Assembly (NCBI RefSeq): GCF_001720465.1
Contig: NZ_CP017113.1
Span: forward strand, 124,001-188,000
DNA: 64,000 nt
Direction: 5' to 3'
DNA from: Porphyrobacter sp. LM 6
GTDB taxonomy: Bacteria; Pseudomonadota; Alphaproteobacteria; Sphingomonadales; Sphingomonadaceae
Part shown: piece after piece, positions 4,732 to 41,186 of the stretch
Layout of the letters: the number at the start of each line of letters is the position of its first letter
Numbering within the stretch: the first letter of the stretch is position 1
Made by a program: the position numbers and the translations under genes
Notes under the pieces: generated by a model
What the model was told of the DNA's origin: nothing
The model's database searches: none
The model's input: only the letters and a program-made list of their open reading frames with translations

Positions 4732-4759
4732 CGCCAATGTTCCACGTGGAACATTGGCG
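4732..4759. other. parS centromere-like site 1
   Basis: Bases 4738-4753 read TGTTCCACGTGGAACA, an exact match to the ParB-binding consensus TGTTNCACGTGNAACA. The palindrome is perfect over 28 bp (4732-4759). It sits in the convergent gap between polA and the CDC48 gene, so it is free of coding constraint. ParB spreading and SMC loading from such sites drive origin segregation, and these sites normally cluster near the origin. Confidence 0.9.
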
Positions 4760-4764
4760 GCAGG

Positions 4765-7071
4765 TTAATCGTGCTTCTTGTCGCGGGTCGGGGTCAGCAT
4801 ATCGGGTGACAGGAAACCGATCGGCTGGACGGCAGCGGCCCGCTTTTTAAGCTCGCCGCGCATCTTGAGATACTCGTCCTCCATCTCGACCGTCACTGTA
4901 GCGCGCGAATCCTTGAGCGCCGCGTCGAAGTCGCGGGCCTCGACCGCGTTCACCTCACCGCCCACGCGCCGCAGCGCGGCAAGCCCCGCGCGACGCACCA
5001 GATCTTCCAGATCCGCCCCGGTAAACCGCTCGGTTTGTGCAGCAATTCCAGCGAGATCAACATCCTTGCCGAGCGGCATCTTGCCCGTGTGGATGCCCAG
5101 AATATGCTCGCGCCCCGCCTTGTCCGGGGTGCCGACATAGACCAACTCATCGAACCGGCCCGGGCGCAGCAAGGCCGGATCGACCAGCGTCGGCCGGTTG
5201 GTCGCGCCGATCACGACCACGGATTGCAGCTCTTCCAGCCCGTCCATCTCGGCGAGGATAGTGTTGACCACCCGGCCCGTAACCTGCGGTTCGCCCTGCC
5301 CGCTGCCGCGCGCGGGAACGAGGCTGTCGATCTCGTCGATGAAAAGGACACAGGGTGCCACCGCACGGGCGCGGGCGAACAGGCGCGCGATCTGCTGCTC
5401 GCTTTCGCCGTACCACTTTGACAGCAAGTCGCTGCTTTTCATGGAGATAAAGTTCGCCTCGGCTTCCTTGGCCACCGCCTTGGCGAGCAGGGTCTTACCC
5501 GTGCCGGGCGGGCCGTAGAGCAGGAAGCCCTTGGCCGGACGAATGCCCAGCCGCCGGAACGCCTCGGGGTTCTTGAGCGGGAGCTCGATCCCCTCTTTGA
5601 GCTTGTCGATCGCCTCGCCCGCGCCGCCGATATCGTCCCACGACACATTGGGCACCTGCACCATCACCTCGCGCATCGCCGAGGGCTGGATGCGCTTCAG
5701 CGCGGCGAGGAAATCGTCGCGGGAAACGCACAGGTCTTCCAGCACTTCGGGCGGAATGGTGCGCTCGTCGAGATCAAGGCGCGGCATGATCCGCCGGACG
5801 GCCTCGATCGCCGCCTCGCGCGCCAGCGCGGCAATATCCGCGCCGACGAAGCCATGGGTCACGCGCGCCAGTTCGTCGAGATCGACCGCGCTCTCGAGCG
5901 GCATGCCGCGGGTGTGGATGCCGAGAATCTCGCGCCGCCCGCGCTGGTCGGGGACGCCGATCACGATCTCGCGGTCGAACCGGCCGGGGCGGCGCAGCGC
6001 CTCGTCGATGGCATCGGGTCGGTTGGTGGCGGCGATGACGACAAGGTTGGCGCGCTTCTCTAGCCCGTCCATCAGCGTCAGCAGCTGGGCGACAAGGCGC
6101 TTTTCCGCCTCTCCGGGGACCTGCGTGCGCTTGGGCGCGATCGAATCGATCTCGTCGATGAAGATGATCGCAGGCGCGGCGCGGGTGGCTTCCTCGAACA
6201 CTTCGCGCAGGCGCTTCTCGCTCTCGCCATAGCCCGACCCCATGATTTCCGGGCCGTTGATGGTGAAGAAGGTCGCATCGCTCTCGTTCGCGACGGCCTG
6301 CGCCAGCCGGGTCTTGCCGGTGCCCGGCGGGCCGTGGAGCAGCACGCCCTTGGGCGGTTCGACCCCGAGGCGGATGAACAGTTCGGGATAGCGCAGCGGC
6401 AGTTCGACCATTTCGCGCAGGGCACGGATGGTCTCCTCCATGCCGCCGACATCGTCGTAATTGACCACCGCCCGGCCATCGCGCGGTTCTTCGAATTCGG
6501 CGCGCAGTTCGACCTCGGTGTTCTCGTCGATATGGACGATTCCCTTGGGGCTGGTCGAGGCAACGGTGAGCCTGATCTGGGTCAAGGCATAGGCTGGCGC
6601 GCGCAACAGCTGGCGAACGTCAGCCGGCATGTTCTGCACCGGCTGCTGCCCGGTGGTCGCGACCAGATCGCCGGCGACGAGCGGACGGCGGAAGAAATTG
6701 CGCTTCAACGCCTGGGTCGGCCCCTGAAGGCGCATCTCGCGCTGGGCGGGAGCGAACACGACACGGGTGGCCGGACGCGATTCGGCGCGCGCGATTTCGA
6801 CATGCTCACCCGATCCCGCCTCGGCATTGCCGCGCTGGAGACCATCGAGCCGCACGACATCAAGCGCATCGTCTTCCGGATAGGCGGCCATCGCGATCGC
6901 GGCGGTCACGCGCTTGCCCTTGATCTCGACCACATCGCCTTCGGTAATGCCGAGCTTCTGGAAGGCCGAGCGCGGCATGCGGGCAATGCCTTGTCCGGAT
7001 TCCTCCTGCCGCGCAGGCGCGACCTGCAATCTGACAGTGCGGACCGAAGTGGCAGTTTCGCGGTCGGCCAT
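4765..7071 (-). CDS. CDC48/VAT-family double AAA ATPase
   Basis: A 768-residue protein with the CDC48 layout: an N-terminal double-psi-barrel substrate domain (about 1-190), D1 with Walker A GPPGTGKT (about 247), Walker B FIDEID (about 305) and an Arg-finger region (ATNRP...RRPGRFD), then D2 with a second GPPGTGKT (about 519), FIDEID and LLRPGRFD. Both rings therefore look catalytically competent. Such unfoldases extract or remodel proteins; partners in bacteria are poorly known. The C-terminus ends in a charged DKKHD rather than the HbYX proteasome-docking motif. The ATG at 7071 has a good AGGGAA ribosome site; an upstream in-frame start at 7140 is rejected. Confidence 0.93.
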   Translation of the reverse strand: MADRETATSVRTVRLQVAPARQEESGQGIARMPRSAFQKLGITEGDVVEIKGKRVTAAIAMAAYPEDDALDVVRLDGLQRGNAEAGSGEHVEIARAESRPATRVVFAPAQREMRLQGPTQALKRNFFRRPLVAGDLVATTGQQPVQNMPADVRQLLRAPAYALTQIRLTVASTSPKGIVHIDENTEVELRAEFEEPRDGRAVVNYDDVGGMEETIRALREMVELPLRYPELFIRLGVEPPKGVLLHGPPGTGKTRLAQAVANESDATFFTINGPEIMGSGYGESEKRLREVFEEATRAAPAIIFIDEIDSIAPKRTQVPGEAEKRLVAQLLTLMDGLEKRANLVVIAATNRPDAIDEALRRPGRFDREIVIGVPDQRGRREILGIHTRGMPLESAVDLDELARVTHGFVGADIAALAREAAIEAVRRIMPRLDLDERTIPPEVLEDLCVSRDDFLAALKRIQPSAMREVMVQVPNVSWDDIGGAGEAIDKLKEGIELPLKNPEAFRRLGIRPAKGFLLYGPPGTGKTLLAKAVAKEAEANFISMKSSDLLSKWYGESEQQIARLFARARAVAPCVLFIDEIDSLVPARGSGQGEPQVTGRVVNTILAEMDGLEELQSVVVIGATNRPTLVDPALLRPGRFDELVYVGTPDKAGREHILGIHTGKMPLGKDVDLAGIAAQTERFTGADLEDLVRRAGLAALRRVGGEVNAVEARDFDAALKDSRATVTVEMEDEYLKMRGELKKRAAAVQPIGFLSPDMLTPTRDKKHD

Positions 7072-7213
7072 GGAATTCCCTTGTGCTGCTGGAACGAGTG
7101 CGTGTGCCAGATAGCTAGGAACGGGACAAAGCGAATGCAATCAGACAGGCGGCAGGCAGCCCCGTCCTCGCCGCGAGGTCAGCCTGGAGAGCCGAACGGG
7201 GCCGAAAAGAAAA

Positions 7214-7236
7214 AAGCCCGGCACGAGGCCGGGCTT
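7214..7236 (-). terminator. strong intrinsic terminator facing left, with no obvious gene upstream of it
   Basis: AAGCCCGGC (7214-7222) pairs perfectly with GCCGGGCTT (7228-7236) around a 5-nt loop. Read on the minus strand the stem is followed by a U-rich run (TTTTTTCTTTT), while the plus-strand side is not U-rich. A transcript ending here would have to start in 7237-7576, where no protein gene lies, so a small RNA or antisense leader is possible. Confidence 0.7.
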
Positions 7237-7576
7237 GAAAGTTTGGGAGAGGATGCCTGAAAGGCCCTTTCCATATGCAGGGCAGGGTTTGATTGTGCAA
7301 GTGCGAAATCACCCTTTTTGATGCAAAGAATGCAAGTATGTGGCCGAAATGCCTAGTTTTATGCAAAACATTGCACAGAACTGCCTTTAAAAGCGGCAGT
7401 TGCACATATTATGTGCAGAAAATTGGCCCTCACGCCATGCTGCATCGCACCATATTTGCCCGATGCGATAACCGAGTCGTGGGCGTGACAGCCGCGGTGT
7501 AACCCACTAATCACCCCGCAGGATCCCGCCTGAGGGATCGATCTCGCAAACCACACCGACGAGGCGGGCAGGCCCC
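7237..7576. other. gene-free leader of the sco operon
   Basis: About 340 bases without a credible gene on either strand, clearly more AT-rich than its surroundings. It holds the TGCAA/TTGCA box cluster (7296-7404), an inverted repeat TGCACAT-ATT-ATGTGCA at 7401-7417, and presumably the promoter of the CoA-transferase operon, plus the source of whatever transcript ends at the terminator at 7214-7236. Confidence 0.5.
7296..7404. promoter_or_regulatory. cluster of six TGCAA/TTGCA boxes upstream of scoA
   Basis: TGCAA occurs at 7296, 7322, 7331 and 7362, and TTGCA at 7371 and 7400; one pair forms TGCAA-AACA-TTGCA. ScfR/RamB-type short-chain acyl-CoA regulators of alphaproteobacteria are reported to bind TTTGCAAA-like repeats, which would suit a CoA-transferase operon, but that assignment is inference. 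Similar boxes recur at 20318-20377. Confidence 0.4.
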
Positions 7577-8299
7577 ATGACCAAGCTTTATCCCGATGCG
7601 GCAAGCGCGCTGGAAGGCGTGCTCAAGAACGATATGCTGATCGCCGCAGGCGGGTTCGGCCTGTGCGGCATTCCCGAAAGGCTGCTGGACGCCATACGTG
7701 ACAGCGGTGTGACGGGGCTGACCTTCGCCAGCAATAATGCCGGGATCGATAACGAGGGCATCGGCAAGCTGCTCCGCACCCGTCAGGTGAAGAAGATGAT
7801 CAGCTCCTACGTCGGCGAGAACAAGGAATTCGAGCGGCAGTATCTGGCCGGCGAGCTCGAAGTCGAGTTCTGCCCGCAGGGCACGCTGGCCGAACGCATG
7901 CGCGCAGGCGGCGCGGGCATCCCCGGGTTCTACACCCGCACCGGGGTCGGCACCGAAGTCGCCAAGGGCAAGGAGCACAAGCAATTCCCCGACCGCGACG
8001 GGGTGATGCAGACCTATATCCTCGAGCAGGGCATCTTCGCCGACCTGGCGATCATCAAGGCGTGGAAGGCCGATACCACCGGTAATCTCGTGTTCCGCAA
8101 GACCGCGCGCAACTTCAACCTTCCCGCCGCCACCTGCGGCAAGGTCTGCATTGCCGAGGTCGAAGAAGTCGTGCCGGCAGGATCGCTCGATCCTGACCAG
8201 ATCCATCTCGCGGGCGTGTTCGTGAACCGCATCGTCTGCGGCGCACCCTACGACAAGAAGATCGAGTTCCGCACCGTGCGGGAGCGTGAGACGGCATGA
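7577..8299 (+). CDS. scoA: 3-oxoacid CoA-transferase, subunit A
   Basis: A 240-residue alpha subunit of a family I CoA-transferase (SCOT/AtoD/PcaI group). It shows the N-terminal glycine-rich FGLCGIP segment, SNNAGID and the conserved GIPGFYTRTGVGTEVAKGKE block. Together with the B subunit it moves CoA from succinyl-CoA to acetoacetate or another 3-oxoacid, feeding ketone-body or polyhydroxybutyrate breakdown products into thiolysis. SCOT is favoured over the 3-oxoadipate enzyme because no beta-ketoadipate genes are nearby. Its stop overlaps the next start by 4 bp (ATGA), the first of four such overlaps in this operon. Confidence 0.9.
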   Translation: MTKLYPDAASALEGVLKNDMLIAAGGFGLCGIPERLLDAIRDSGVTGLTFASNNAGIDNEGIGKLLRTRQVKKMISSYVGENKEFERQYLAGELEVEFCPQGTLAERMRAGGAGIPGFYTRTGVGTEVAKGKEHKQFPDRDGVMQTYILEQGIFADLAIIKAWKADTTGNLVFRKTARNFNLPAATCGKVCIAEVEEVVPAGSLDPDQIHLAGVFVNRIVCGAPYDKKIEFRTVRERETA

Positions 8300-9084
8300 T
8301 CCGCCGCGGGGCTGCAACGTGGCCCATGCTGGCGCTGGCAGCGGCGGCGCTGTCCGGCTGCGGCGGCGTTATCCCGCAGGTAGCGCCCGCTGCGAAACCG
8401 GCACCACCAGCAGCAGCGGCCCCGGCGCCCGCGCCGATGCTGGTCCTGCCTACGTTCTCGACCCAGGAGGCGGCTGCTCTGCGCGCGCCCGCACCTGAAG
8501 CGCCCGCGCAGCGCGGCTTTGCCCAGTTTGTCCGCTATGCCCGCAATATCGCCATTGCAGCGAAAGGCGGCGGCGCGCCGCTCTCGGCGATGCTGACCGA
8601 TCCGGTCGCGCTCGACGGGCGTCGGCGGACTTGTGCACCCGGAGCTCAGCCGGTGGCCCTGATCGATCTCGATCCGGCAGGCGGCCTGTTCGCGCCGCCG
8701 GCCAATCCTGCCCAGTTGCCCGGGCTCGCGCTCGGGCTCGCCGTGCTGCGCGAGGCCGGTGTGGCGATTGCCTGGCGATCCGATCTCCCAGTCGAAGAGA
8801 CAGGCCCCTTGCGCACCGCGTTGGAGCGGGCCGGGCTTGATCCGCGCGGGCAGGACATCGTCTCGCTCCGCCGCGATGCCGACGATCGCAAACAGGCGCG
8901 GCTGGATAGTCTCGCCGCGACTGCGTGCATCGTCGCCATCGCCGCCGACGAACGCTCTGATTTCGACGAACGGTTCCGCTACCTGCGAACCCCCGAAGCC
9001 GCAGCAGGTCTTGAACCGCTGTTCGGCGACGGCTGGTTCATGGTGGAACCGGTGTTTCTCAAGGAAGGACAGCAGACCCAATGA
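8296..9084 (+). CDS. putative lipoprotein with degenerate HAD (class B acid phosphatase-like) features
   Basis: A 262-residue protein with a signal peptide and lipobox (LSGC, cysteine about residue 24), then an Ala/Pro-rich linker. The remainder resembles the secreted HAD acid phosphatase fold: ALIDLDPAG is in the place of motif I (DxD kept), [19 protein letters not shown]...L...GLD is like motif II, and [16 protein letters not shown] is like motif IV. The usual T/S of motif II appears as RSD. I infer a periplasmic hydrolase or a former one; no family name can be given with certainty. It overlaps both CoA-transferase subunit genes by 4 bp, which is an odd place for an exported protein. Confidence 0.65.
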
Positions 9085-9731
9085 CTGCACTGCCGCAAGG
9101 CTGGACCCGCGACGAAATGGCCGCTCGCGCCGCGCGCGAGCTGAAGGACGGCTATTACGTCAATCTCGGCATCGGCATCCCGACGCTGGTGGCGAACCAC
9201 ATCCCCGAAGGGATGCTGGTGACGCTCCAGAGCGAGAACGGCATGCTCGGCATCGGGCCGTTCCCCTATGACGACGAAGTCGATCCCGATCTGATCAATG
9301 CCGGCAAGCAGACGATCTCCGAACTGCCGCACAGCGCCTATTTCGACAGCGCGACCAGCTTCGCGATGATCCGCGGCGGGCATATCGACCTCACCGTGCT
9401 CGGCGCGATGGAGGTGGCCGAGAATGGCGACATTGCCAACTGGATGATCCCGGGCAAGATGATCAAGGGCATGGGCGGGGCGATGGACCTTGTCGCCGGG
9501 GTGAAGAAGATCATCGTGGTTATGGATCACACCTCGAAGGACGGGACGCCGAAGTTCATCCCAGCCTGCACTCTGCCGCTAACCGGCGCGGGCGTGGTCG
9601 ACATGGTGATCACCAATCTCGCGGTGTTCCAGCGGCCCGACCATAACTCGCCCTTCCGCCTGATCGAAATGGCTCCCGGTGTGACCGAAGCCGATATCGC
9701 GGCGACCACCACCGCGCATTACGTGGCGTGA
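9081..9731 (+). CDS. scoB: 3-oxoacid CoA-transferase, subunit B
   Basis: A 216-residue beta subunit. It carries the SENG motif ([12 protein letters not shown]) whose glutamate forms the covalent CoA thioester in family I CoA-transferases, and the ISGG-type region [19 protein letters not shown]. With ScoA it makes the active enzyme in the cytoplasm. It overlaps the upstream lipoprotein gene and the downstream esterase gene by 4 bp each, so translation is probably coupled along the operon. The separation of the two subunits by another gene departs from the usual adjacent AB order. Confidence 0.92.
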
Positions 9732-10615
9732 TGCGGCGTGGGATTGTTGTCGCCGCGCTGGCACTGGCCGTCATGATCGGAACCCTGCTCGCCCTTACTT
9801 CGCCGCCACGGCTGCTGTCACTCTATGACCGGGTAACAGGCGGCGGCAGCGGCGCGCGGCTGGTGGCGGAAGGAGTCACCTTCGGGCGCAACGGGCAGAC
9901 GCTCGACATCTGGGCACCGGCCGAAGCGTCGGGAGGCAAGCTCCCGGTCGTCATCTTCTGGTATGGCGGCGGCTGGGCCAACGGGGATCGCACGTCCTAC
10001 GCCTTTGCCGGGCGCGCACTGGCGCGGGAAGGGTTCCTCGTCGTCATTCCTGATTACCGCAAAGTGCCGCAAGTGCGCTTTCCGGCCTTCCTCGACGACG
10101 GGAGCGAGGCGGTGGCATGGGTCGAAGACAGGATCGCAGATCACGGCGGTGATCCGGCACGGGTGGCGTTCATGGGCCATTCGGCGGGTGCCTATCAGGC
10201 GGTGATGCTCGCGCTGGATAGCGAGCGTCTTGCGGCGGCAGGAGCAGATCCAGGGATCGTCAAGGCGGCGGTCGGACTGTCCGGCCCCTATGACTTCCAC
10301 CCCTTCACTTCCGACCGCGCGATCGATGCCATGAGCCACTGGCCGCGCCCGGAAGAGACGCAGCCGATCACCTTCGCCCGCGCCGACGCACCGCCGCTGC
10401 TGCTGGTCACCTCCGATGGCGACGAGACCGTGCGCGCGAGGAACGCCAACAATCTCGGTGCCAAACTGAAGGGCCTTGGCGCGCCTGTCGAGGTGAGGAA
10501 CTACGGCGCACTCGATCACGAGGAAGTGGTGATGGCGCTTTCGGTACCGTTCCGCAGCAAGGGGCCGGTGCTCGCCGACAGCGTCGCCTTCCTGCGTGCG
10601 CGGCTGGGGCAATGA
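9728..10615 (+). CDS. alpha/beta hydrolase (carboxylesterase/BD-FAE-like)
   Basis: A 295-residue protein with an N-terminal hydrophobic anchor (residues 5-25) and an alpha/beta-hydrolase domain. The oxyanion segment is FWYGGGW, in place of the HGGGW of the hormone-sensitive lipase branch; the nucleophile elbow is GHSAG, and a late aspartate (TSDGDETV) and histidine (LDHEEV) complete a plausible triad. It is probably a membrane-tethered esterase acting on small acyl esters. In a CoA-transferase operon, one attractive but unproven substrate class is hydroxyalkanoate oligomers. Four-base overlaps at both ends place it firmly in the operon. Confidence 0.8.
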
Positions 10616-11778
10616 CGATGTGGCTGACTGAACCGCGCAATCCCAACGCGCCGCTTGCCGGGCTCAAGGTGGTCGAACTCGCCCGCGTGCTGGCAGGGCC
10701 GTTCTGCGGACAGATCCTCGCCGATCTCGGCGCGGATGTGATCAAGGTCGAAAGTCCGGAAGGCGACGGCACCCGGCTATGGGGGCCGCCCTGGGTCGAG
10801 CGCACCGACGCAAGCGGGAAAGTTCACCGCGAGGCGGCCTATTACCACGCCTGCAACCGCGGCAAGCGTTCGATCATCGCGGACTTCGGCGATGCCGACG
10901 ACCTCTCCCGGGTGCGCGCGTTGTGTGTCGAAGCCGACGTGGTGATCGAGAACTTCAAGACCGGAAGTCTCGCCAAGTTCGGGCTCGATTACGCCAGCCT
11001 TTCAGCGACCAATCCCGGCCTTGTCTATTGCTCGATCACCGGCTTCGGCCAGACCGGACCGCGCGCGCACGAGGCGGGCTATGACTTCGTGGTGCAGGGC
11101 ATGAGCGGTTTCATGTCGCTGACCGGCGAGCCGGAAGGTCATCCGGTCAAGATGGGCGTGTCGATCTCTGATCTTGCCACCGGCGTCTGGGCGGCCAACG
11201 GCGTGCAGGCGGCGCTGCTGATGCGCGCACGCACGGGCAAAGGCCAGCAGGTCGACATGAGCCTGATGGACTGTTCGGTCGGCCTCCTGGCCAATCAGGC
11301 GAGCTACTTCTTCACCACCGGCGAAAACCCGCCGCGGATGGGCAATGCCCACGCGCAGGTCGCGCCTTACGGGGTGTTCGCGGTGAGCGACGGGCACGTG
11401 ATCCTCGCCCCCGCCAACGACGGGCTGTTCCACAAACTGATGGCGGTGCTGGGCCGGAGCGAGCTGTGCGACGATCCGCGCTTCCTCACCAATGGCGATC
11501 GCACTGCCAACGCCAGGGCGCTCGATGCCGAGATCGCCACCGCAACGGCAGGCTGGACCAAGCAAGGCCTCCTCGATGCCTGCCACGCCGCCGGCGTCCC
11601 CGCCGGCCCGATTAACCGCCTGGACGAGGTCTTCGCAGATCCGCAGGTGATCGCGCGCGGCCTCAGGATCGAGCTTGGGGGGATGGCAGGCATCCGCAGC
11701 CCGTTCGTCTTCTCGGACGCCGAACTGGCGCTCGATCGCCCTTCGCCGATCCACGGCGCGGACGATCCGGCACTCTGA
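10612..11778 (+). CDS. CaiB/BaiF family (family III) CoA-transferase
   Basis: A 388-residue family III CoA-transferase. It shows PLAGLKVVELARVLAGPFCGQILADLGADVIKVE at the N-terminus and NRGKRSIIADF, then the catalytic aspartate region (LMDCSVGLL, with D in the usual position) and GNAHAQVAPYGVFAVSDG. These enzymes exchange CoA between acyl-CoA and free acids such as succinate or formate; the substrate cannot be read from the sequence. It is the last gene of the sco operon, overlaps the esterase gene by 4 bp, and faces metK convergently. Confidence 0.9.
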   Translation: MTMWLTEPRNPNAPLAGLKVVELARVLAGPFCGQILADLGADVIKVESPEGDGTRLWGPPWVERTDASGKVHREAAYYHACNRGKRSIIADFGDADDLSRVRALCVEADVVIENFKTGSLAKFGLDYASLSATNPGLVYCSITGFGQTGPRAHEAGYDFVVQGMSGFMSLTGEPEGHPVKMGVSISDLATGVWAANGVQAALLMRARTGKGQQVDMSLMDCSVGLLANQASYFFTTGENPPRMGNAHAQVAPYGVFAVSDGHVILAPANDGLFHKLMAVLGRSELCDDPRFLTNGDRTANARALDAEIATATAGWTKQGLLDACHAAGVPAGPINRLDEVFADPQVIARGLRIELGGMAGIRSPFVFSDAELALDRPSPIHGADDPAL

Positions 11779-11787
11779 AGCAGGCGA

Positions 11788-11803
11788 CGGGGCAAACGCC
11801 CCG
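11788..11803. terminator. short hairpin between convergent genes
   Basis: CGGGGC (11788-11793) pairs with GCCCCG (11798-11803) around AAAC. It lies in the 32-bp gap between the CaiB gene and metK. No U-tract is present on either side, so terminator function is tentative. Confidence 0.35.
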
Positions 11804-11810
11804 ATCGCTA

Positions 11811-13022: not shown

Positions 13023-13074
13023 GGGGCCTCCGGGGTGAGGGCTGGTGGGATCAGGATCAGCGACGGATTAAGGC

Positions 13075-13102: not shown

Positions 13103-13125
13103 GTCCGACTTTCTACCCGTCCGCC

Positions 13126-24563: not shown

Positions 24564-24647
24564 GCGCGTGAATCACCACAGCCTGCGCGCCCGCGTCCAG
24601 CACGATTTTCTTGTGCCGCGCTGGCCCGCGTGCCAAGCGCCCTGGCC

Positions 24648-25349
24648 ATGACGGCATTCAAGGAAGGCGATCCGACCACCATCGCGCGGCTTTACGGCCG
24701 GAGCGTCGGCAAGAAGTTGCGCAAGTATCAGCAGGGGCTGGTCGATAATCTCCTGCCCCAGATCAGCGTGCCCACTGAAGGCCCGGTGACGAGCGAGGGG
24801 CTGTTCGGCGATGCTCGCCCTCTGCATTTCGAGATCGGCTTCGGTGGGGGCGAGCATCTTGCCTATCGTGCAGACCTGCTACCCGATCACGGCTTCATTG
24901 GGGCCGAGCCTTTCGTCAATGGCGTGGCGCAGGCGCTCACCCACATTGCCGACCAGCGGCTCGCCAATGTCCGGCTGCATCATGGCGATGCTTTGGAGGT
25001 GCTCCAGCGTATTCCGGATGGCGCACTGACGATGCTCTATCTGCTCCACCCAGACCCGTGGCCCAAGGCGCGCCATGCCAAGCGTCGGATGATGAACGAT
25101 GGGCCGGTTCGGCTGTTCGCGCAGAAGATGAAGCCCGGCGGCGAATTCCGCTTCGGCACCGACCATGCGGTCTACCTGCGCCATGCCCTGATGGTGATGC
25201 AGCGCCATACCGACCTGTTCGAATGGGTGGTCGAGAAGCCCGCCGACTGGCAGGTGCGCCCCTCCGGCTGGCCCGAGACCCGCTACGAGCACAAGGCCCG
25301 CACGGTATATGGCCACGAGGTGTGGTATTTCAGGTTCCGACGCCGCTAG
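24648..25349 (+). CDS. trmB: tRNA (guanine-N7-)-methyltransferase
   Basis: A 233-residue SAM-dependent enzyme making m7G46 in tRNA variable loops. It shows LHFEIGFGGGEHL (SAM-binding motif), FIGAEPFVNGVA, the TrmB-specific LLHPDPWPKARHAKRRM and GGEFRFGTDH. The N-terminal segment (RLYGRSVGKKLRKYQQGLVD) is typical of sphingomonad TrmB. The ATG at 24648 is preferred over an upstream GTG at 24630. It ends two bases before the second parS palindrome. Confidence 0.95.
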   Translation: MTAFKEGDPTTIARLYGRSVGKKLRKYQQGLVDNLLPQISVPTEGPVTSEGLFGDARPLHFEIGFGGGEHLAYRADLLPDHGFIGAEPFVNGVAQALTHIADQRLANVRLHHGDALEVLQRIPDGALTMLYLLHPDPWPKARHAKRRMMNDGPVRLFAQKMKPGGEFRFGTDHAVYLRHALMVMQRHTDLFEWVVEKPADWQVRPSGWPETRYEHKARTVYGHEVWYFRFRRR

Positions 25350-25350: not shown

Positions 25351-25372
25351 CGATGTTCCACGTGGAACATCG
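25351..25372. other. parS centromere-like site 2
   Basis: Bases 25354-25369 are TGTTCCACGTGGAACA, identical to site 1, and lie inside a 22-bp perfect palindrome (25351-25372). It falls in the short gap between convergent trmB and a membrane-protein gene. Copies of the GGGTCTA repeat begin about 20 bp downstream, mirroring site 1. Confidence 0.9.
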
Positions 25373-25391
25373 AGCAAGCGCGACCTAAGCC

Positions 25392-25419
25392 GGGTCTAAT
25401 GGGGGTCTAGGCGGGTCTG
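25392..25419. repeat. GGGTCTAG iterons next to parS 2
   Basis: GGGTCTA at 25392, GGGTCTAG at 25403 and GGGTCTG at 25413 have spacings of 11 and 10 bp, with a weaker copy (ACCTA) one turn earlier. This is the reverse complement of the unit at 4664-4704, and it lies on the opposite side of its parS. The minus-strand gene here uses the TAG inside the second repeat as its stop codon. Confidence 0.55.
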
Positions 25420-25805
25420 ACCCCGCGCACCCGCCACCACGGCATCAGCGCGAACACGATTTGCCCCGTCAGCCCGACCGCCGCGTGCGGCTGGCCGAAA
25501 TCGGCGAGCCACTGGCCGACCGTCAGCCCCATCATCCCTACGCCCAGCGCGTATTCCGCCGCCATCAGCAGCACAAAGGCGAGGAGCCCGACAGCCAGCG
25601 CCTCGCCGCCACCCGCAATTTCGAAGCGCCGCAACAGCCAGCCGCTCGCCAGCCAGCTCGCGCCCAGCATCACCGGCAGTTCGATGAGGGTAGCGGGCAG
25701 CATACCCACCTGCGGCGCAAGCCACAGCACCCTGATGGTTCCCAGCACAAACCCCAGCGCGAAGACCACCGCCCAATAGGCAATGGCAGCGCGCAGGATT
25801 GTCAC
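25407..25805 (-). CDS. four-helix membrane protein of unknown function
   Basis: A 132-residue, very hydrophobic protein with four predicted membrane helices (about 5-25, 33-60, 66-88 and 108-122). The segment GFVLGTIRVLWLAPQVG suggests relation to a family of uncharacterised inner-membrane proteins in alphaproteobacteria, but I cannot name it. Its ATG overlaps the stop of maeB by 4 bp, so it is probably co-translated with malic enzyme. Confidence 0.65.
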   Translation of the reverse strand: MTILRAAIAYWAVVFALGFVLGTIRVLWLAPQVGMLPATLIELPVMLGASWLASGWLLRRFEIAGGGEALAVGLLAFVLLMAAEYALGVGMMGLTVGQWLADFGQPHAAVGLTGQIVFALMPWWRVRGVRPA

Positions 25806-32393: not shown

Positions 32394-32398
32394 TGCGC

Positions 32399-33496: not shown

Positions 33497-33517
33497 GCCA
33501 CACGACAGATTGTTTCG

Positions 33518-33555: not shown

Positions 33556-33628
33556 CCACTCTGTCACGGCTTTGACTCTTTGGTTTGCCACGTCAGGATG
33601 CAGGTCAATCAGGGAGGAACGCAGAGCC

Positions 33629-34237: not shown

Positions 34238-34249
34238 GGCCGCATTGGG

Positions 34250-34831
34250 TTACTTCGCGCCAAGCCGGTCCCATGTCTCCCACGGAATGGCTCGCCCGGG
34301 ATAGGCGACATTGTTGAAGCGCCAATCTTTTGCGATCCAGGCTTTGGTCCAGGCATAGAGCTCGGCATCGAAGCCAGCGTCGAACTCGGCTTTGGTCACC
34401 CATAGGCGCACCTCGGCATCGTAGCCCGGTACCGTGCCGGGATAGACATAGACACATCCGCGCTCGCGCGTGCCATCAGGGGTCAGCACCGCATAGGCAA
34501 AAGACTCCCGCCGCGCGAACCGGCCTTGCTCGGTGAGCATATCGGTCATCGCTTCGGCAGTGGTGATATCGGCGCGCGGCCAGCCCTTCGAGCGCGTGAA
34601 GGTCTGCTGGAGATGCTCGATCGAGGACATGTAAGCCGCGAAATCGATGTCGACCAAGGCGGGCCCCAGCGGGACCAGCTTGAAGCCCGGACCCTCGACA
34701 AGCGTGGGAACCTGAAAGTCTGCGGCAATGAAGGGGGCCGGCGGCACCGCCGTGCCGGGCTCCTGAGCAGCAATCGGCGTTGCGGTGAGCGCCGCTAGCG
34801 CCAATGCCGCCCCAATCACGCGTGCGATCAT
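34250..34831 (-). CDS. exported protein, possibly GNAT-fold
   Basis: A 193-residue protein starting at the ATG at 34831 behind GGAGGGCAGGGC. It has a clear signal peptide (MIARVIGAALALAALTATPIAAQ). The mature part (HLQQTFTRSKGWPRADITTAEAMTDMLTEQGRFARRESFAYAVLTPDGTRERGCVYVYPG) looks like an acyl-CoA N-acetyltransferase strand order, which would be unusual outside the cytoplasm, so the fold assignment is tentative. No catalytic residues can be named. It lies downstream of kynU by 47 bp and may be read through from the kyn operon. Confidence 0.6.
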   Translation of the reverse strand: MIARVIGAALALAALTATPIAAQEPGTAVPPAPFIAADFQVPTLVEGPGFKLVPLGPALVDIDFAAYMSSIEHLQQTFTRSKGWPRADITTAEAMTDMLTEQGRFARRESFAYAVLTPDGTRERGCVYVYPGTVPGYDAEVRLWVTKAEFDAGFDAELYAWTKAWIAKDWRFNNVAYPGRAIPWETWDRLGAK

Positions 34832-34878
34832 GCCCTGCCCTCCGTAAGTGCTCGGCCCGATGCGGCCTGCGGACGGCA

Positions 34879-36114
34879 TTACGTCACCGCGGCCCGTTGG
34901 TTGAATTCGTCATTTCGCCACTCTCCGCTCGCCAGCACTTCGGCGATGTGGCGGGCAGCGGCGGCGATATCGGCAAAGCTCAGATAGGCGGGCGCAAAGC
35001 CCAGTCGCAGCACGTCGGGATCTCGGAAGTCCCCGATCACACCGCGCGCGATCAGGGCCTGACAGATCGCATAGGCGTGCGGATGGCGGAACGAGAGCTG
35101 GCTGCCCCGTGCGTTGCTGACCGGCGGGCTGACCAGTTCGAGCGCGACGTCATGCGCCATCAGGCTCTCCAGCAGAAACTCGGAGAGCGCCTGCGATTTG
35201 GCGTAGAGCCGCTCGGCCCCGATGCCCGCAATCAGATCGACACCGACTTCGAGCGCCGCCAGCCCGAGCACCGGCGAGGTGCCGCACAGCATCCGCTCGA
35301 TCCCCGGCGCATCGGCGTAATCGTCCGAAAAGGCAAAGGGTGCCGCATGGCCAAACCAGCCGGTGAGCGGCTGTTCGAGCCGCGCATGATGGCGCTCTGC
35401 GACAAAGGCAAAGGCGGGTGCGCCCGGTCCGCCGCACAGGTATTTGTAGCCGCAGCCGACGGCGAAATCGGCTCCCACCGCGTTCAGATCGACGGGCACC
35501 GCTCCGGTCGAATGCGACAGATCCCACAGCACCAGCGCCCCCGCTGCATGCGCCGCGCGGGTCAGCGCGGCCATATCGTGCAACGCGCCAGTCTTGTAAT
35601 GAACGTGGGTGAGCATCAGCAGCGCGACATCATCGCCGAGCGCCTCAACCAGCCTGTCGCGCGGGGCGAGCCGCCGCTCGGCAAGGCCCTGCCGCTCCAG
35701 CCCGGCTATCATGTAGAGATCGGTCGGGAAATTGCCGGGCTCGGACAGGATCACCTTTCGGCCGGGGCGCATCTGCAGCGCCGCCGCGATCAGCTTGAAC
35801 AGGTTCACGCTGGTCGAATCGCAGGCAACAACCTCGTTCTGCGCGGCACCGATCAGCGGTGCAATTTTGCCCCCGACGCGGCTTGCCGCTGAGAACCATC
35901 CGGCCCCAAATTCACTGGCATTCCACGAGCGGATCAGCCCCTCGCCCCACTCCCGCTCAACCACACGCCGCATCACGTCAGGCGTGGCCTTGGGCAGTGC
36001 GCCGAGCGAGTTGCCATCAAGATAGATCACGTCGGCCGGCAGGGTGAAGCACTCGCGGTAGTGCGCCAACGGGTCGGCGGCATCGAATTCGGCGGCGCGC
36101 TGTTCGGGTGTCAT
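34879..36114 (-). CDS. kynU: kynureninase
   Basis: A 411-residue PLP enzyme cleaving kynurenine to anthranilate and alanine (or 3-hydroxykynurenine to 3-hydroxyanthranilate). The N-terminus has YLDGNSLGALP, and the aminotransferase-fold core has LVLWDLSHSTGAVPVDL (PLP ring aspartate) and the Schiff-base lysine in GCGYKYLCGGPGAPAF. It is third in the operon kynA-kynB-kynU, with its ATG overlapping the kynB stop by 4 bp. Confidence 0.95.
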   Translation of the reverse strand: MTPEQRAAEFDAADPLAHYRECFTLPADVIYLDGNSLGALPKATPDVMRRVVEREWGEGLIRSWNASEFGAGWFSAASRVGGKIAPLIGAAQNEVVACDSTSVNLFKLIAAALQMRPGRKVILSEPGNFPTDLYMIAGLERQGLAERRLAPRDRLVEALGDDVALLMLTHVHYKTGALHDMAALTRAAHAAGALVLWDLSHSTGAVPVDLNAVGADFAVGCGYKYLCGGPGAPAFAFVAERHHARLEQPLTGWFGHAAPFAFSDDYADAPGIERMLCGTSPVLGLAALEVGVDLIAGIGAERLYAKSQALSEFLLESLMAHDVALELVSPPVSNARGSQLSFRHPHAYAICQALIARGVIGDFRDPDVLRLGFAPAYLSFADIAAAARHIAEVLASGEWRNDEFNQRAAVT

Positions 36115-36749
36115 GACAGCTCCCGCAGCACTGCGCGCACCGGCGAGGCATCCCCGCCGACGATGGGTAGCGGCAGAGCGATCAGCTCGTAACGGCCCGG
36201 CAGGACATCATCGAGAACCAGGCCTTCCAGCACCCGGATATCGTGACGCAGCACGGCCAGATGTGCGTCCATCATCTTGGAAGATTGCGGATCGATCGAT
36301 GGGCCATCAAGCCCCACCAGCCGCACGCCTGCTGCCGCCAGCACATCGATGGTTGCCGGAGCAATGGCGGTGGTTTCATCCACCCATGCCTGATGCGGGA
36401 ATGCCTCGAAGGTGCGGAACAGGACTCGCTCAACGCCGGCGAGATCGGGCAGGTGATCGGGCAGGATCAGCGGCCCTGCACCGCGCGCATCGACCACCAG
36501 ACATTCGCCGAGATAGGGCGAAAGATCGACACTCGCGATATCGGGCGCGGCGGCGGCATAATGCAGCGGCGCGTCGGCATGGGCGCCCGAATGGGTCGAC
36601 ATGGTCAACGCCGACACGTTGACCGGCGAGCCGTCACCGATCTGCCACGTGCCGGCTTGCGCAAAGGCGGTATCGCCCGGCCACACCGGAAGGCCGCAAT
36701 GCAGCGGCTGGGAGATATCCCAGATACGCCGCCGGATCGCAGCGCTCAT
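36111..36749 (-). CDS. kynB: kynurenine formamidase
   Basis: A 212-residue metal-dependent cyclase-family hydrolase converting N-formylkynurenine to kynurenine. It begins WDISQPLHCGLPVWPGDTAF and has the metal-binding signature HSGAHADAPLHY. It overlaps kynA upstream and kynU downstream by 4 bp each, giving a tightly coupled three-step pathway from tryptophan to anthranilate. Confidence 0.95.
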   Translation of the reverse strand: MSAAIRRRIWDISQPLHCGLPVWPGDTAFAQAGTWQIGDGSPVNVSALTMSTHSGAHADAPLHYAAAAPDIASVDLSPYLGECLVVDARGAGPLILPDHLPDLAGVERVLFRTFEAFPHQAWVDETTAIAPATIDVLAAAGVRLVGLDGPSIDPQSSKMMDAHLAVLRHDIRVLEGLVLDDVLPGRYELIALPLPIVGGDASPVRAVLRELS

Positions 36750-37537
36750 ATCGCCGTTCTCACGCTCAGCAGCTCAGGGAAAAAGGCCTGCTTCAGCACC
36801 CCTTCGAGATAGGGCACGCCCGGTGTCCCGCCCGTGCCGCGCTTGAACCCGATGACCCGTTCGACCGTCTTGAGATGGCCGAACCGCCAGCGCTGGAAGT
36901 GGTATTCCAGATCAACCAGCTTCTCGGCGAGTTCATAGAGATCCCAGTGGCTATGGGGATCGCGGTAAACCTCGGCCCATGCCGCCTCGACGCTGGCATT
37001 GTGGACATAGGCTGCGGCCGGATCACGCGTCAGCGCTGCGGAATCGACGGCTAACCCGCGCCGTGCCAGCAGCCGGATCGCGGCATCATAGAGGCTCGCC
37101 CGCCCGCACTCGGCCTCCAGCCGCTCAGCCCAGTCCTCGTTGCCGCGATGCAGCCGCACGTGCTTGCCATCGCGCCCGCCGAGCATGAATTCCATCATCC
37201 GGTATTGCGCCGACTGAAACCCGCTCGACGCACCGAGATGCGGTCGCACCGCCGAATAGTCGTGCGGCGTCATGGTGCTGAGAACGTCCCAGCTCTGGAT
37301 GAGCTGCTGCTGCGCCCGCGCCACCCGCGCCAGCATTTTGAACGCGGGGCGCAGCGTGTCCGCTTCGATACATTCGCGCGCGGCGGTGAGTTCGTGCAGG
37401 CACAGCTTGAGCCAAAGCTCGCTCGCCTGGTGGACGATGATGAACAGCAGCTCGTCATGGGCTTCGGACGCAGGGTGCTGGGCCGCAAGAATGCGGTCGA
37501 GATCGAGATAGCTCGCGTAGGTGACGTTTTCGGCCAT
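36746..37537 (-). CDS. kynA: tryptophan 2,3-dioxygenase
   Basis: A 263-residue heme dioxygenase opening the indole ring of tryptophan. Conserved blocks are present: TYASYLDLDRILAAQHP, HDELLFIIVHQASELWLKLCLHEL, SGFQSAQYRMMEFMLG, and near the end the heme-ligand region YHFQRWRFGHLKTVERVIGFKRGTGGTPGVPYL. It is the first gene of the kynABU operon, with its promoter in or before the 39-bp gap to the DUF4112 gene. Confidence 0.96.
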   Translation of the reverse strand: MAENVTYASYLDLDRILAAQHPASEAHDELLFIIVHQASELWLKLCLHELTAARECIEADTLRPAFKMLARVARAQQQLIQSWDVLSTMTPHDYSAVRPHLGASSGFQSAQYRMMEFMLGGRDGKHVRLHRGNEDWAERLEAECGRASLYDAAIRLLARRGLAVDSAALTRDPAAAYVHNASVEAAWAEVYRDPHSHWDLYELAEKLVDLEYHFQRWRFGHLKTVERVIGFKRGTGGTPGVPYLEGVLKQAFFPELLSVRTAI

Positions 37538-37576
37538 AATCCATGCGCTCCTAGCGCGTGGCTGCGGCCAAGGAAA

Positions 37577-38008
37577 CTATCCCTCGATCACCCGCGCTTC
37601 GGGATGATGCTTGTCGATGTGCTTGAGGATGATCTTGAGGTTCTTGCTGTTCGAACGGAACACAAAGTCCGCAGCATCGCCCACCAGCGGGATCGCACCG
37701 ATCGCGGTATCGAACAGGACATTCAGCCCCATACGCGCCTGCTGCCAGCGGGACATGCCCAGATTGCGCGCTTCCCACACGATGTAAGCGCCCAGCGCCG
37801 TCGTCACGACATCGCCAAGCACCGGAACCAACCCGATCAGCGCATCAAGTCCCACCGGCATGTTCACCCCGGGCAGCACGAAGCTGCGCTCGAGCAACTG
37901 CTCCAGCGCGGTAATCCGGGCGCGCACCGAGGCGGGATCGCGCCCGGTGGGCAAGGTCTGGATCATCGGGCGCGGCGCCTGCGGGCGACCATTGGTGTTC
38001 ATCGTCAT
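37577..38008 (-). CDS. DUF4112 family protein
   Basis: A 143-residue protein with the DUF4112 hallmark segments PGVNMPVGLDALIGLVPVLGDV and LFDTAIGAIPLVGDAADFVFRSNSKNLKIIL, each carrying the repeated hydrophobic 'LIGLVPVLGD' hairpin that suggests membrane association. The function is unknown. It lies five bases after the stop-distal neighbour (solute-binding protein) and 39 bp before kynA, in the same direction. Confidence 0.88.
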   Translation of the reverse strand: MTMNTNGRPQAPRPMIQTLPTGRDPASVRARITALEQLLERSFVLPGVNMPVGLDALIGLVPVLGDVVTTALGAYIVWEARNLGMSRWQQARMGLNVLFDTAIGAIPLVGDAADFVFRSNSKNLKIILKHIDKHHPEARVIEG

Positions 38009-38013
38009 ACAGC

Positions 38014-39477
38014 TTAGGTGGGAGGCTCAGACAGCGCGAACAAGGGGTGGAGCCCCCACTGGTTGGGCAGGTAATTGCGGATCGACCCGCGCACCAACGA
38101 CCAGCGCACCGGCGCACCCAACGGAATGAAGGCCTCGCGCGCCATCAGGGCAGCATGGGCTTCAACCAGCAGCCGTTCGCGACGGGCGGCATCACGCTCT
38201 TCCAGAGACCGCCGCACGAGCGCATCGGCTTCGGACGAGCACAGGCTTGTCCGCAGGCTGCAGTTGAACTGGTTAAGGAACCAGCGCGGCGAGGCATAAC
38301 GCGCGAGCGTATCGCGCAGCTCTAGATCGGCGCGCTCACCCGGCCGCGCGCGCACGACCCGCACCCCGATCGCGTTCCAGCTTTCGGTCAGCTGTTCGAA
38401 CAGCAGGTCGCTGCCCGGCCCGCTCGGCAGCGCCACGCGGATCGTCGGCTCGCGCCCTGCCTGCGCCGACCATGCGCGCACCCGTGCTGCAGCAACTCGG
38501 CGCCGATCATCAAGCGAAGCGCCGCTCCAGCGGTCGTCGGAATAAGGCGCAGCGGCATAGATCTGCGGCGGCACGATCCAGCTCGTCGAACGCCAGCCGT
38601 TGAGCCCGAAGGGCTGGATCAGACCGGCGCGGTCAATCGCCATCGACAAAGCCTGACGCCGTAGCGGATCGGCAAGAAAGCCGCTGTCTGACCGGAACGC
38701 CAAACCGAACAGGCCGATCGCCGGATCAACCTGAATCGTCCCGCGCGACAGAGGACCAACTTCGGCGAGCGGGAAATCCGGCAGCGTGCCGTTGAGCACA
38801 AGATCGACATCGCCGCGAGAGAATGCCTCGGTCGCCTCGCCGGCCGGCAAGGCCCGCACTGCAATCGGGCGGGCAACATCTTCCCAGTCCTCCCGCGCGG
38901 GAAGTCCGCGGGCTTCCGGAGGGAGCGCCGTCAGCAGTGCAATCGGCCCGCGGTTCTTGCCGGAAAGCGCCATCGGCCCTGTGCCGCTCCCATTGCGGTC
39001 GAGCCCCAATTCCGGCTGGGCGAGCAATTGCAGGAAATCGGGCATCGGCGAGGACAGGCGGATCTCGATAACACGGCCGGTCATCGCGCGGATCTCGCGC
39101 ACCTTGCCGAGATCGAGCCCGAGCGACGTGCCACGCACCCTTGCCAATGCCTCGCGCAGGAGCAGCCGGACTTCCGGAGCTGTGATTTCCTGACCGCCGG
39201 GCCAGGTGCTGTCGCGCAGGCGGAAGATGTAACTCTGGCCGTCTTCGGTCACGATCCAGCGTTCGGCAATCGCCGGGACGACCTGCCCCGCCTGATCGAG
39301 CGCCACAAGGCCTTCATGCGTTGCCGCGCGCAGGTGCTGCGCGGGCGGAGCCAGCCGCACGCCCTTTTGGTAGAGGCTGTCGGGCGCGCCGATGACAGCC
39401 ACTTCGACCGGGCCGCCGCCCGACGGGCCGCAGGAAGCAACACTCAGCGCAGCAAGCAGGAAAAGCCAGAATCGCAT
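38014..39477 (-). CDS. ABC-type peptide/solute-binding lipoprotein (SBP family 5)
   Basis: A 487-residue periplasmic binding protein of the DppA/OppA superfamily. A short signal peptide ends in the lipobox SVASC. Family features include HLRAATHEGLVALDQAGQVVPAIAERW, DGQSYIFRLRDSTWPGGQEITAPEVR and the C-terminal region with LRTSLCSSEADALVRR. No permease or ATPase genes are adjacent, so it is an orphan; it may work with a distant transporter or bind something for sensing. Confidence 0.85.
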   Translation of the reverse strand: MRFWLFLLAALSVASCGPSGGGPVEVAVIGAPDSLYQKGVRLAPPAQHLRAATHEGLVALDQAGQVVPAIAERWIVTEDGQSYIFRLRDSTWPGGQEITAPEVRLLLREALARVRGTSLGLDLGKVREIRAMTGRVIEIRLSSPMPDFLQLLAQPELGLDRNGSGTGPMALSGKNRGPIALLTALPPEARGLPAREDWEDVARPIAVRALPAGEATEAFSRGDVDLVLNGTLPDFPLAEVGPLSRGTIQVDPAIGLFGLAFRSDSGFLADPLRRQALSMAIDRAGLIQPFGLNGWRSTSWIVPPQIYAAAPYSDDRWSGASLDDRRRVAAARVRAWSAQAGREPTIRVALPSGPGSDLLFEQLTESWNAIGVRVVRARPGERADLELRDTLARYASPRWFLNQFNCSLRTSLCSSEADALVRRSLEERDAARRERLLVEAHAALMAREAFIPLGAPVRWSLVRGSIRNYLPNQWGLHPLFALSEPPT

Positions 39478-39570
39478 CGCGATCCTGCCTAGCAGGTTGG
39501 AACGCCGCGGTCAGCGGGTGGCATCAATCGGCTGTGCAGTGGCGTGCAGAACGCCGGTCGGGATTGCTGG

Positions 39571-39948
39571 TCAGATCTTGCGCAGCTGCGAGGGCGCAAC
39601 CGGAGCAGGCGCACGGTGCACCCACGAGCGGTCAACAAGGCCCAGGCCCGGATCTTCGTCGGCCTGCAACGGCCGCCGTGCCAGCTGGGAATCGATCTCT
39701 TCATCGAAGGCGACGCCGAAGCGATTGTCCTGGACCCACGCAACGGTACCGGCAATCAGGCCGACATTGCGCAGCTGGATGGCCAACCGGTGCCCGCGCA
39801 TCACGCGCAGATTGCCCTCACCCATCATGCCCCCGTCCGAAAGATTTCGGACGCGCACCTTGTGGGTTTCAGAGTTCTGCTCGACTCGCACTTCAGCCAG
39901 CAGGAACAGGCTGTCACGCGAAACACTGCGTGTCTCAATACCTGTCAT
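39571..39948 (-). CDS. PilZ domain protein
   Basis: A 125-residue protein starting at the ATG at 39948 behind GGGAGGCGG. The core (ETHKVRVRNLSDGGMMGEGNLRVMRGHRLAIQLRNVGLIAGTVAWVQDNRFGVAFDEEID) is a PilZ fold with the (D/N)xSxxG motif as NLSDGG. The upstream RxxxR motif that wraps c-di-GMP is absent (SRDSLFLLAEV instead), so nucleotide binding is doubtful. A longer in-frame start at 40137 overlaps dksA and is not preferred. Confidence 0.75.
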   Translation of the reverse strand: MTGIETRSVSRDSLFLLAEVRVEQNSETHKVRVRNLSDGGMMGEGNLRVMRGHRLAIQLRNVGLIAGTVAWVQDNRFGVAFDEEIDSQLARRPLQADEDPGLGLVDRSWVHRAPAPVAPSQLRKI

Positions 39949-40133
39949 ATTCGGACCGCCTCCCGCGCCACAAACCATATGTCGCGCCAGCCCGAACCAT
40001 AGCGGCTCGCCCGGACGCGCGCCAATGTTCGTGCGCCGATTGCGGTTAACGGATGGTAAAAATCGGGCTCGCAGGGGGCACCGACCGTTAGCGCGTCCCA
40101 GCGCGGCACAGGTCGCGCCGCGCGGGTTAGCGA

Positions 40134-40595
40134 TCAATCGTCGCGCGAGACCTTTTCACGGCGTTCATGGGCTTCCTGCGCCTCGACCGTCATGGTCGCT
40201 ACAGGGCGCGCGATGAGGCGGCGCAGGCCGATCGGATCGCCGGTGACCTCGCAGTAGCCATATTCGCCCGAGTCGATCCGGCGCAGCGCCGAGTCGATTT
40301 TGGCGACCAGCTTGCGCTGGCGATCACGGGTGCGCAGTTCGATGCCCCAATCGGTCTCGCTCGAGGCGCGGTCGGTCAGATCGGCTTCGCGGATCGGGCC
40401 ATCGGCGAGCGATTGCAGGGTCTGTCCGGCGGCGGAATGGATCGAGCGCTTCCATTCGATCAGCAGCATCCGGAAATAGGCCTGCTGGCGCTCGTTCATG
40501 TATTCCTCGTCCTCGCTCGGCACATAATCCGGCGCGAGCAGGCGCTTGGCCTTTTCGAGGACATCGATGTCGTCAGACGCGGAGGTTGGCATCAA
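40134..40595 (-). CDS. dksA: RNA polymerase-binding protein DksA (one-cysteine type)
   Basis: A 153-residue DksA/TraR protein: a coiled-coil hairpin (EYMNERQQAYFRMLLIEWKRSI...ETDWGIELRTRDRQRKLVAKIDSALRRI) that enters the polymerase secondary channel, followed by GEYGYCEVTGDPIGLRRLIARPVATMTVEAQEAHERREK. Three of the four zinc cysteines are replaced, as in other alphaproteobacterial DksA proteins; the fold persists without zinc. It would act with ppGpp in starvation control. It is divergent from the Sel1-like gene across 261 bp. Confidence 0.93.
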   Translation of the reverse strand: MMPTSASDDIDVLEKAKRLLAPDYVPSEDEEYMNERQQAYFRMLLIEWKRSIHSAAGQTLQSLADGPIREADLTDRASSETDWGIELRTRDRQRKLVAKIDSALRRIDSGEYGYCEVTGDPIGLRRLIARPVATMTVEAQEAHERREKVSRDD

Positions 40596-40770
40596 GCTCT
40601 CTCATCCCGTGGCCCGCTGGGGAGACCTTCGCGTCCTGACGCCATGAATTTTTCCATTGGCTCACTTGGTCCCAGCAAGGTGAAGCAATGCGCGCCCTAT
40701 AGGGAAGGCCCCCTAAGCGCACAAGCGGGTTTGGGAATGAGATGGGGGCAAACACAAAGTGCGGATCACG

Positions 40771-40785
40771 TTAACCAATTATTGA
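40771..40785. promoter_or_regulatory. near-consensus CtrA box
   Basis: TTAA-CCAATTA-TTGA (40771-40785) matches the CtrA box TTAA-N7-TTAA at seven of eight positions. It lies about 75 bp before the start of the Sel1-like gene that contains parS 3, within the divergent region shared with dksA. Confidence 0.4.
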
Positions 40786-40856
40786 CCATGTTAGCCGACT
40801 TCTGAGCCTCGCAAGGTCGCCTGGGGGGTGACCAGGTGACGAAGGGGTAAACCGGA

Positions 40857-41186
40857 ATGAACATCATCGCGATTGGCGCCAAGAGTGCGAATGTTGCACG
40901 TGGAACATCGGGCGAAGCGCTACTTACGGCATGGCTGGCTGCGGCTAGCCAGGGTCAAGCAGGGGCCTGCTTCGATCTCGGCGTGGCCTTCTCGACCGGC
41001 AGCAACGGCGCGCCCTGCGATCTAATCGAAGCCCACAAGTGGTTCAACCTCGCCGCCGCGCGCGGTCACGAGGAAGCCGGCCATTGCCGCGCCGACATTT
41101 CGGAAGAGATGACCGCCCGCGAAATCGCCGAAGCCCAGCGCCGTGCGCGCCAGTGGCTCGCCGAAGGCCGCCTGCGCGCCGCTTAA
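40857..41186 (+). CDS. small Sel1-repeat-like protein carrying parS 3
   Basis: A 109-residue protein with one and a half Sel1/TPR-like repeats: QGQAGACFDLGVAFSTGSNGAPCDLIEAHKWFNLAAARGHEEAG. It has a family-typical tail REIAEAQRRARQWLAEGR. Sel1 proteins mediate protein contacts, and this short form is common in sphingomonads without a known role. Codons 13-17 (Val-Ala-Arg-Gly-Thr) and adjoining bases spell a parS site. The stop overlaps the convergent GNAT gene by 4 bp. Confidence 0.8.
   Translation: MNIIAIGAKSANVARGTSGEALLTAWLAAASQGQAGACFDLGVAFSTGSNGAPCDLIEAHKWFNLAAARGHEEAGHCRADISEEMTAREIAEAQRRARQWLAEGRLRAA
40892..40907. other. parS centromere-like site 3 (intragenic)
   Basis: TGTTGCACGTGGAACA matches TGTTNCACGTGNAACA with G at both variable positions, so it is the only one of the three sites that is not a perfect palindrome at every base. 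It lies inside the Sel1-like gene, and no GGGTCTAG repeats flank it. Confidence 0.8.

Follow-up and report, generated by a model that had tools for sequence, protein, structure and literature searches.

Why should a stretch of chromosome lying away from the parB gene hold three perfect copies of parS, the 16-bp site at which the segregation protein ParB loads? The stretch in question is a 64,000-nucleotide window of Porphyrobacter sp. LM 6 (contig NZ_CP017113.1, positions 124001–188000), a member of the Erythrobacter/Porphyrobacter group whose genome is a single contig of 2,979,257 bases (2.98 Mb). An earlier note on this window had reported three ParB-type parS sites, and we found all three 16-mers where it had placed them: site 1 at 4738–4753 (genome 128738; TGTTCCACGTGGAACA), site 2 at 25354–25369 (genome 149354; again TGTTCCACGTGGAACA) and site 3 at 40892–40907 (genome 164892; TGTTGCACGTGGAACA), each with 0 mismatches to the consensus TGTTNCACGTGNAACA and none assigned a strand. 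Their excess over chance was likewise borne out: at up to 3 mismatches the window holds 6 matches against a shuffle mean of 0.80, with 6 reached in 0/100 shuffles, and 14 fixed bases at 65% GC predict 0.003 perfect sites per whole genome. The ParB-type identity also held, with the same 16-mer found at the sites adjoining the genome's own parB, and with a ParB that retains parS-class residues. Based on the comparisons below, we propose that these sites are probably part of a network of ParB-loading stations that spans the whole chromosome and that selection has maintained in one Erythrobacter/Porphyrobacter clade.

Scanning the whole genome, we identified a total of 56 perfect consensus sites, or 63 sites at up to 2 mismatches. 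Eight of the perfect sites form a 4.8-kb cluster (418348–423146) just before the ParB gene. GC skew in sampled stretches is weak: between about 0.42 and 2.0 Mb most of it is positive, and over the rest of the genome most of it is negative, a sign pattern from which we place the origin near the parB cluster. The 48 scattered sites are evenly distributed in their distance from that origin (Kolmogorov–Smirnov (KS) p = 0.52), with 24 on each arm, quartile counts of 17/10/11/10 from origin to terminus, and no clear depletion near the terminus. In a second single-contig genome of the genus (G263), 8 of 54 sites are clustered, and the other 46 give a KS p of 0.33 and quartiles of 15/11/13/7. Spacing between sites is weakly regular in the source genome (coefficient of variation 0.76 vs. 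0.97, P = 0.028), and no regular spacing was found in G263. The window sites lie 253–294 kb from the parB cluster, which is itself near a weak sign change in GC skew; they had been read as marking an origin-proximal region, and the 48 evenly spread copies found outside the cluster, an outcome that the earlier note had itself named as refuting, rule out their use as an origin marker. According to PMC7333895 and PMC5815017, described chromosomes carry up to 20–23 parS sites, which are origin-proximal. Here, such a location is seen for the 8-site cluster and not for the 48 scattered sites, which makes the set atypical and leaves the site type as parS.

We additionally found that most scattered sites are accompanied by an array of 11-bp repeats. 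An exact GGTCTA lies on one side, within 110 bp, at 41 of the 48 scattered sites (at least 2 units in 34 of them), and at 0 of the 8 cluster sites. The unit reads GGGGTCTARNG with an 11-bp period and a purine at the R position in all 98 cases, and in several other genomes it takes the form GGGGTCTGGNG. The spacer between parS and array is not conserved. The register is largely fixed: counted from parS, the first exact unit falls at 2 mod 11 at 30 of 41 sites and at 1 mod 11 at 7, and 2 mod 11 accounts for 70 of 100 units overall. The arrays exhibited no replication polarity (12/9/11/9). A stop codon in each unit was considered as the array's purpose, and this idea was dropped because units of the form GGGGTCTGG in relatives carry no stops. 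To our knowledge, phased 11-bp arrays have no counterpart in origin-proximal ParABS systems.

The distribution of such sites among relatives is sharply divided. Across 114 genomes of the genus, some of them incomplete, parS counts are bimodal, with 63 genomes carrying 0–4 sites (parS-poor), 4 carrying 5–8 (middle) and 47 carrying 9–69 (parS-rich). Array doublets, scored with the general unit, were present in 28 of the 47 rich genomes, 1 of the 4 middle genomes and 0 of the 63 poor genomes. More than 4 sites were found in 7 of 249 genomes of the family, and three genomes from genus g95 of the same family (G101, G163, G212) hold 9–13 perfect sites. At least 20 sites occur in 3 of 387 alphaproteobacterial genomes, namely the source genome, G550 (79 sites) and G732 (156 sites). 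In the stretches of the latter two that we read (L296–L307), the sites lie in strings of parS-like palindromes in G550 and in repeated, longer AT-rich palindromes in G732, so that these genomes probably represent another kind of parS expansion.

In a ParB tree that sampled 15 of the 47 rich genomes, these 15 and three named relatives formed one clade (support 100/98), with all 15 sampled parS-poor genomes of the genus outside it, which suggests from ParB phylogeny that parS-richness was gained once. One rich genome with 21 sites (G274) was left out as it gave no strong ParB match, and the nearest row outside the rich clade is Erythrobacter sp. SCN 62-14, which is counted with neither the rich nor the poor set. 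The stem leading to the rich clade is long (0.37 vs. a median end branch of 0.17), and its ParBs have alterations of the DNA-binding domain in common, for instance V instead of A following a conserved Q (17 of 18 rows). Among named organisms, the closest ParBs come from Erythrobacter/Porphyrobacter, among them E. oryzae COR-2, whose ParB is 79% identical to that of the source genome and identical to that of G264, a genome with 14 sites.

Scattered parS positions are, as judged by matching neighbouring genes, largely conserved between species although their flanks have diverged. We compared genes within 400 bp of a relative's parS with DNA within 1.5 kb of 53 source-genome sites (48 perfect plus 5 with one mismatch), and found that at 44 of 50 parS loci from 9 relatives the adjoining gene matches DNA beside one of the source genome's sites, compared with 3 of 50 that match any of 88 control windows. 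These 50 loci were the first listed rather than a random draw, and comprise 15 of 32 perfect sites from G223, 12 of 30 from G254, 4 of 20 from G256, 4 of 30 from G252, and 3 each from G263, G317, G320, G321 and G331. Orthology was called from one-way similarity with a floor of 45%, most values exceeding 70%, and one of the 44 (L207) has its sole match at 53%. Flank identity in 17 orthologous pairs is 65.6% vs. 59% for shuffled flanks; these are 17 of the 19 pairs first listed (L015/L078 and L214/L044, the neighbour pair of L202, being omitted), and since both members of a pair were chosen for having parS, only the flank divergence is informative.

Several parS sites also fall in predicted coding sequence, where they are read as MFHVEH, NVPRET or NVARGT. 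Within an aminotransferase class-V gene, 11 of 16 rich genomes have a perfect parS and one more has it with a single mismatch, compared with none of 15 poor genomes. The encoded proteins, including a G272 row taken from a partial locus whose aligned segment is readable, align without an indel at parS, and several poor genomes already have HVE at that place; this alignment indicates that the in-gene site arose by substitution, not insertion. Eight sites were called as inside genes, of which the three shortest calls, including one of 48 bases, may be miscalls. At two loci (L062 and L066) parS overlaps or abuts a predicted start codon, such that the protein may begin MFHVEH, and G254 has a parS (L191) beside a gene matching that of L066.

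The cell's own ParB is the likely reader of the scattered sites, given their identity with the cluster sites, the inner bases shared between the two, and the lack of a clade-wide paralog. The gene beside the cluster encodes ParB_N (E = 2.8e-33), HTH_ParB and ParB_C domains, and another gene lies directly upstream of it. With specificity positions mapped by motif rather than by alignment to the Caulobacter sequence, this ParB has R and G at the specificity positions, as in the parS class, and M and S at two permissive positions. The inner bases of parS vary by lineage: 45 of the 48 scattered sites of the source genome carry C and G, and relatives mostly have T and A, also at their cluster sites. 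In each of the 17 orthologous pairs both inner bases differ, so these bases changed together at many sites. The source-genome ParB alone has K where 39 of 40 rows have R, at a position that by motif mapping equals a parS-contact residue of Caulobacter ParB (PMC7383237); a link between this K and the inner-base change would be a single case, and is only suggestive. Searching 15 rich genomes for ParB (threshold E = 1e-3), we saw no clade-wide paralog, with a single ParB-strength match in 8 of the 15 and, in one more genome (G274), nothing but a weak match. Two pairs of adjacent extra ParB_N matches, at 1130609–1131786 and 1819975–1821169 (L006, L007, L009, L010) of the source genome, were not seen clade-wide in the ParB search and perhaps derive from mobile elements.

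A genome-wide spread of this type resembles that described for the binding sites of Noc (NBS), and MipZ is described as being recruited by ParB in Caulobacter. We weighed a Noc-like use of ParB, in which the nucleoid would be marked by ParB at the scattered sites, possibly together with MipZ, so that the division machinery stays clear of unsegregated DNA. We regard this explanation as unlikely. Like Bacillus Noc, the present system would place a ParB-family protein at sites across the genome (ParB occupancy here being predicted), but the sites are parS rather than NBS, which by published description differs from parS at two positions, and they leave no clear gap near the terminus, where Noc sites are described as absent. 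The source-genome ParB retains the parS-class R and G and not the Q and R of Noc, the Noc specificity residues (Q173, K179/K184, R201) not being found in it, and no clade-wide paralog emerged from the search above.

Gene context, obtained with our own simple gene finder, bears on a second alternative. Among 40 intergenic scattered sites, 27 lie in convergent, 11 in tandem and 2 in divergent gaps, a marked convergent excess over the 41 of 295 junctions in 13 sampled stretches (p = 1e-14), and of 24 convergent sites that bear an array, 20 have the stop codon of the parS-side gene at a distance of 4–21 bp. Such placement would suit bidirectional terminators, with the palindrome forming an RNA hairpin, the C-rich strand of the array acting as a Rho-loading site, and the parS match being secondary. 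The palindromes are often longer than 16 bp, the array has a C-rich 11-nt period, and arm positions 3 and 4 show more extra pairing than shuffles do (p =.008 and.004, uncorrected, with 20 positions tested). Yet among tandem gaps, it is the gene on the array side that runs towards the element in 6 cases and the gene on the parS side in 5, which gives no support to a rut-type orientation rule. Hairpins of terminator-like form, judged by eye, adjoin several elements, some sites lie within coding sequence, and the 16-mer matches the cluster parS exactly, down to its lineage-specific inner bases. We regard termination as an improbable explanation.

It is also conceivable, at quite long odds, that some other DNA-binding protein reads the scattered 16-mers without involvement of ParB. 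The array suggests some further factor and ParB binding is here predicted only, but the 16-mers are identical to the cluster parS and carry the same inner-base variant, and the ParB search above yielded no clade-wide paralog to fill the role. Hardly credible is a mobile or self-copying repeat (of the repetitive extragenic palindromic or miniature inverted-repeat transposable element type, REP/MITE-like) that happens to carry parS: there are dozens of copies in one clade, and G732 and G550 have many parS within repeated palindromes in the stretches read, but the copies share nothing beyond parS, a few flanking bases and array units, their positions are largely conserved across species, the in-gene site shows no indel, and unit variants follow genomes.

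Returning to a network of ParB-loading stations, we envisage that the cell's ParB would bind the scattered sites, load as a cytidine triphosphate (CTP) clamp and slide away, as PMC7333895 describes for ParB at parS, where it also recruits SMC. The array would bind a second, putative protein abutting ParB on one helical face, and this protein may bound or polarise the ParB clamp or its SMC recruitment, while the placement of sites at gene ends would let ParB and SMC keep clear of promoters. The function could then be distributed chromosome organisation through multiple SMC-loading or ParB-anchoring points, besides ParABS segregation from the cluster, and the outcome may be SMC loading, nucleoid organisation or division control. 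Since mid-arm ectopic parS harms Caulobacter, according to PMC5815017, the clade has presumably altered its handling of ParB, ParA, MipZ or SMC. More tentatively, parS and its array may constitute a new class of element, in which an 11-bp iteron array and its putative protein, in helical register with ParB, give polarity to the site (as one-way sliding or one-way SMC loading) and yield a many-centromere, holocentric-like chromosome, unlike other bacteria, whose centromere is at the origin only; this stronger version strikes us as possible but doubtful.

A number of observations weigh against a selected network. On our analysis, tolerance of mid-arm parS needs a special explanation, given the harm seen in Caulobacter, and because G550 and G732 exceed the source genome, high parS numbers alone are not unique. 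Individual sites have been lost within the clade, with 5 of 16 rich genomes lacking the perfect in-gene aminotransferase site, one of them by 1 base. No array doublet was found in 19 rich genomes, for example G254 (30 parS), G256 (20), G319 (33) and G324 (34), so the array is not obligatory, and 7 of the 41 arrays in the source genome have one exact unit and may be partly due to chance. In three relatives, 5 of 20 arrays away from listed perfect parS lack any parS, and of 8 arrays inspected in the source genome that lack a perfect parS, 5 have nothing nearby and 3 have a half-parS. The idea that such array-only loci prove arrays and parS sites to be independent of each other was mostly rejected, as 15 of the 20 in relatives do have an imperfect parS (14 with 1 mismatch and 1 with 2) and 5 do not. 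One of the five bare arrays in the source genome, L163, matches a parS locus of G252. The arrays near a half-parS or split parS are at genome positions 967905, 2060078 and 2315502 (L162, L165, L167).

The set shares features with several known systems. Like the ParABS systems of Caulobacter, Bacillus, Pseudomonas and Streptomyces, it has the same 16-bp site, a ParB with the expected domains, and a cluster beside parB near the likely origin; unlike them, it adds 48 perfect sites distributed around the entire chromosome. As with the half-parS sites of Pseudomonas aeruginosa (PMC10419367), ParB is predicted to sit at many places off the main parS, but those sites are heptamer half-sites and the present ones are full 16-bp palindromes at cross-species positions. 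The matS/MatP system (PMC3330122) likewise uses dispersed short repeats to organise a chromosome region, as proposed here, though matS is confined to the Ter domain and is read by another protein, MatP. Searches of the open-licence literature turned up no account of parS spread around the chromosome in this group and none of the array; an earlier mention is possible.

Within the window itself, sites 1 and 2 lie, as the earlier note had observed of two sites, in convergent gaps inside longer perfect palindromes; these measure 28 bp (4732–4759) and 22 bp (25351–25372) respectively and have no strand. Each site also has a one-sided array, which that note did not mention. At site 1 the array (4664–4705, minus strand) shows TAGACC on the plus strand at 4666, 4677 and 4688, equivalent to GGTCTA on the minus strand, at distances of 44, 55 and 66 from parS, or 0 mod 11, a minority register. 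Its neighbours are a DNA polymerase family A gene of the polymerase I type on the array side (1794–4658, plus strand) and a CDC48-type AAA ATPase gene on the parS side (4765–7140, minus strand), whose stop is 11 bp from parS. At site 2 the array (25381–25420, plus strand) has GGTCTA at 25393 and 25404 with degenerate units either side, at distances of 23 and 34, placing it in the minority 1 mod 11 register. The parS-side neighbour is a Methyltransf_4 family gene (24630–25349, plus strand), which we take to be TrmB-like and whose stop is 4 bp from parS, and the array-side neighbour is an open reading frame (ORF) without a Pfam match (25407–25805, minus strand). Site 3, which has no array, lies in a small ORF (40857–41186, plus strand) and encodes NVARGT there; the match of this ORF to Sel1 is weak and falls short of the Pfam cut-off (E = 6.9e-5). 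G223 carries TGTTTCACGTGAAACA at the equivalent place of the gene matching this ORF (L014). The window also contains an Rfam match to RF00519 (suhB/mmgR small RNA (sRNA)) at 7200–7272 on the minus strand, at 44.4 bits, above the gathering score.

Collectively, these findings concern what parS is taken to mean. The site is regarded as marking the origin; dozens of copies retained by one clade around its chromosome, largely at conserved positions, show that there are exceptions to this rule. In practice, parS by itself is unsafe for locating the origin in this group. A further, putative partner of ParB is suggested by the phased array, and the clade as a whole offers a natural test of origin clustering, of the number of SMC-loading sites that a chromosome can tolerate, and of the limits on ParB sliding.

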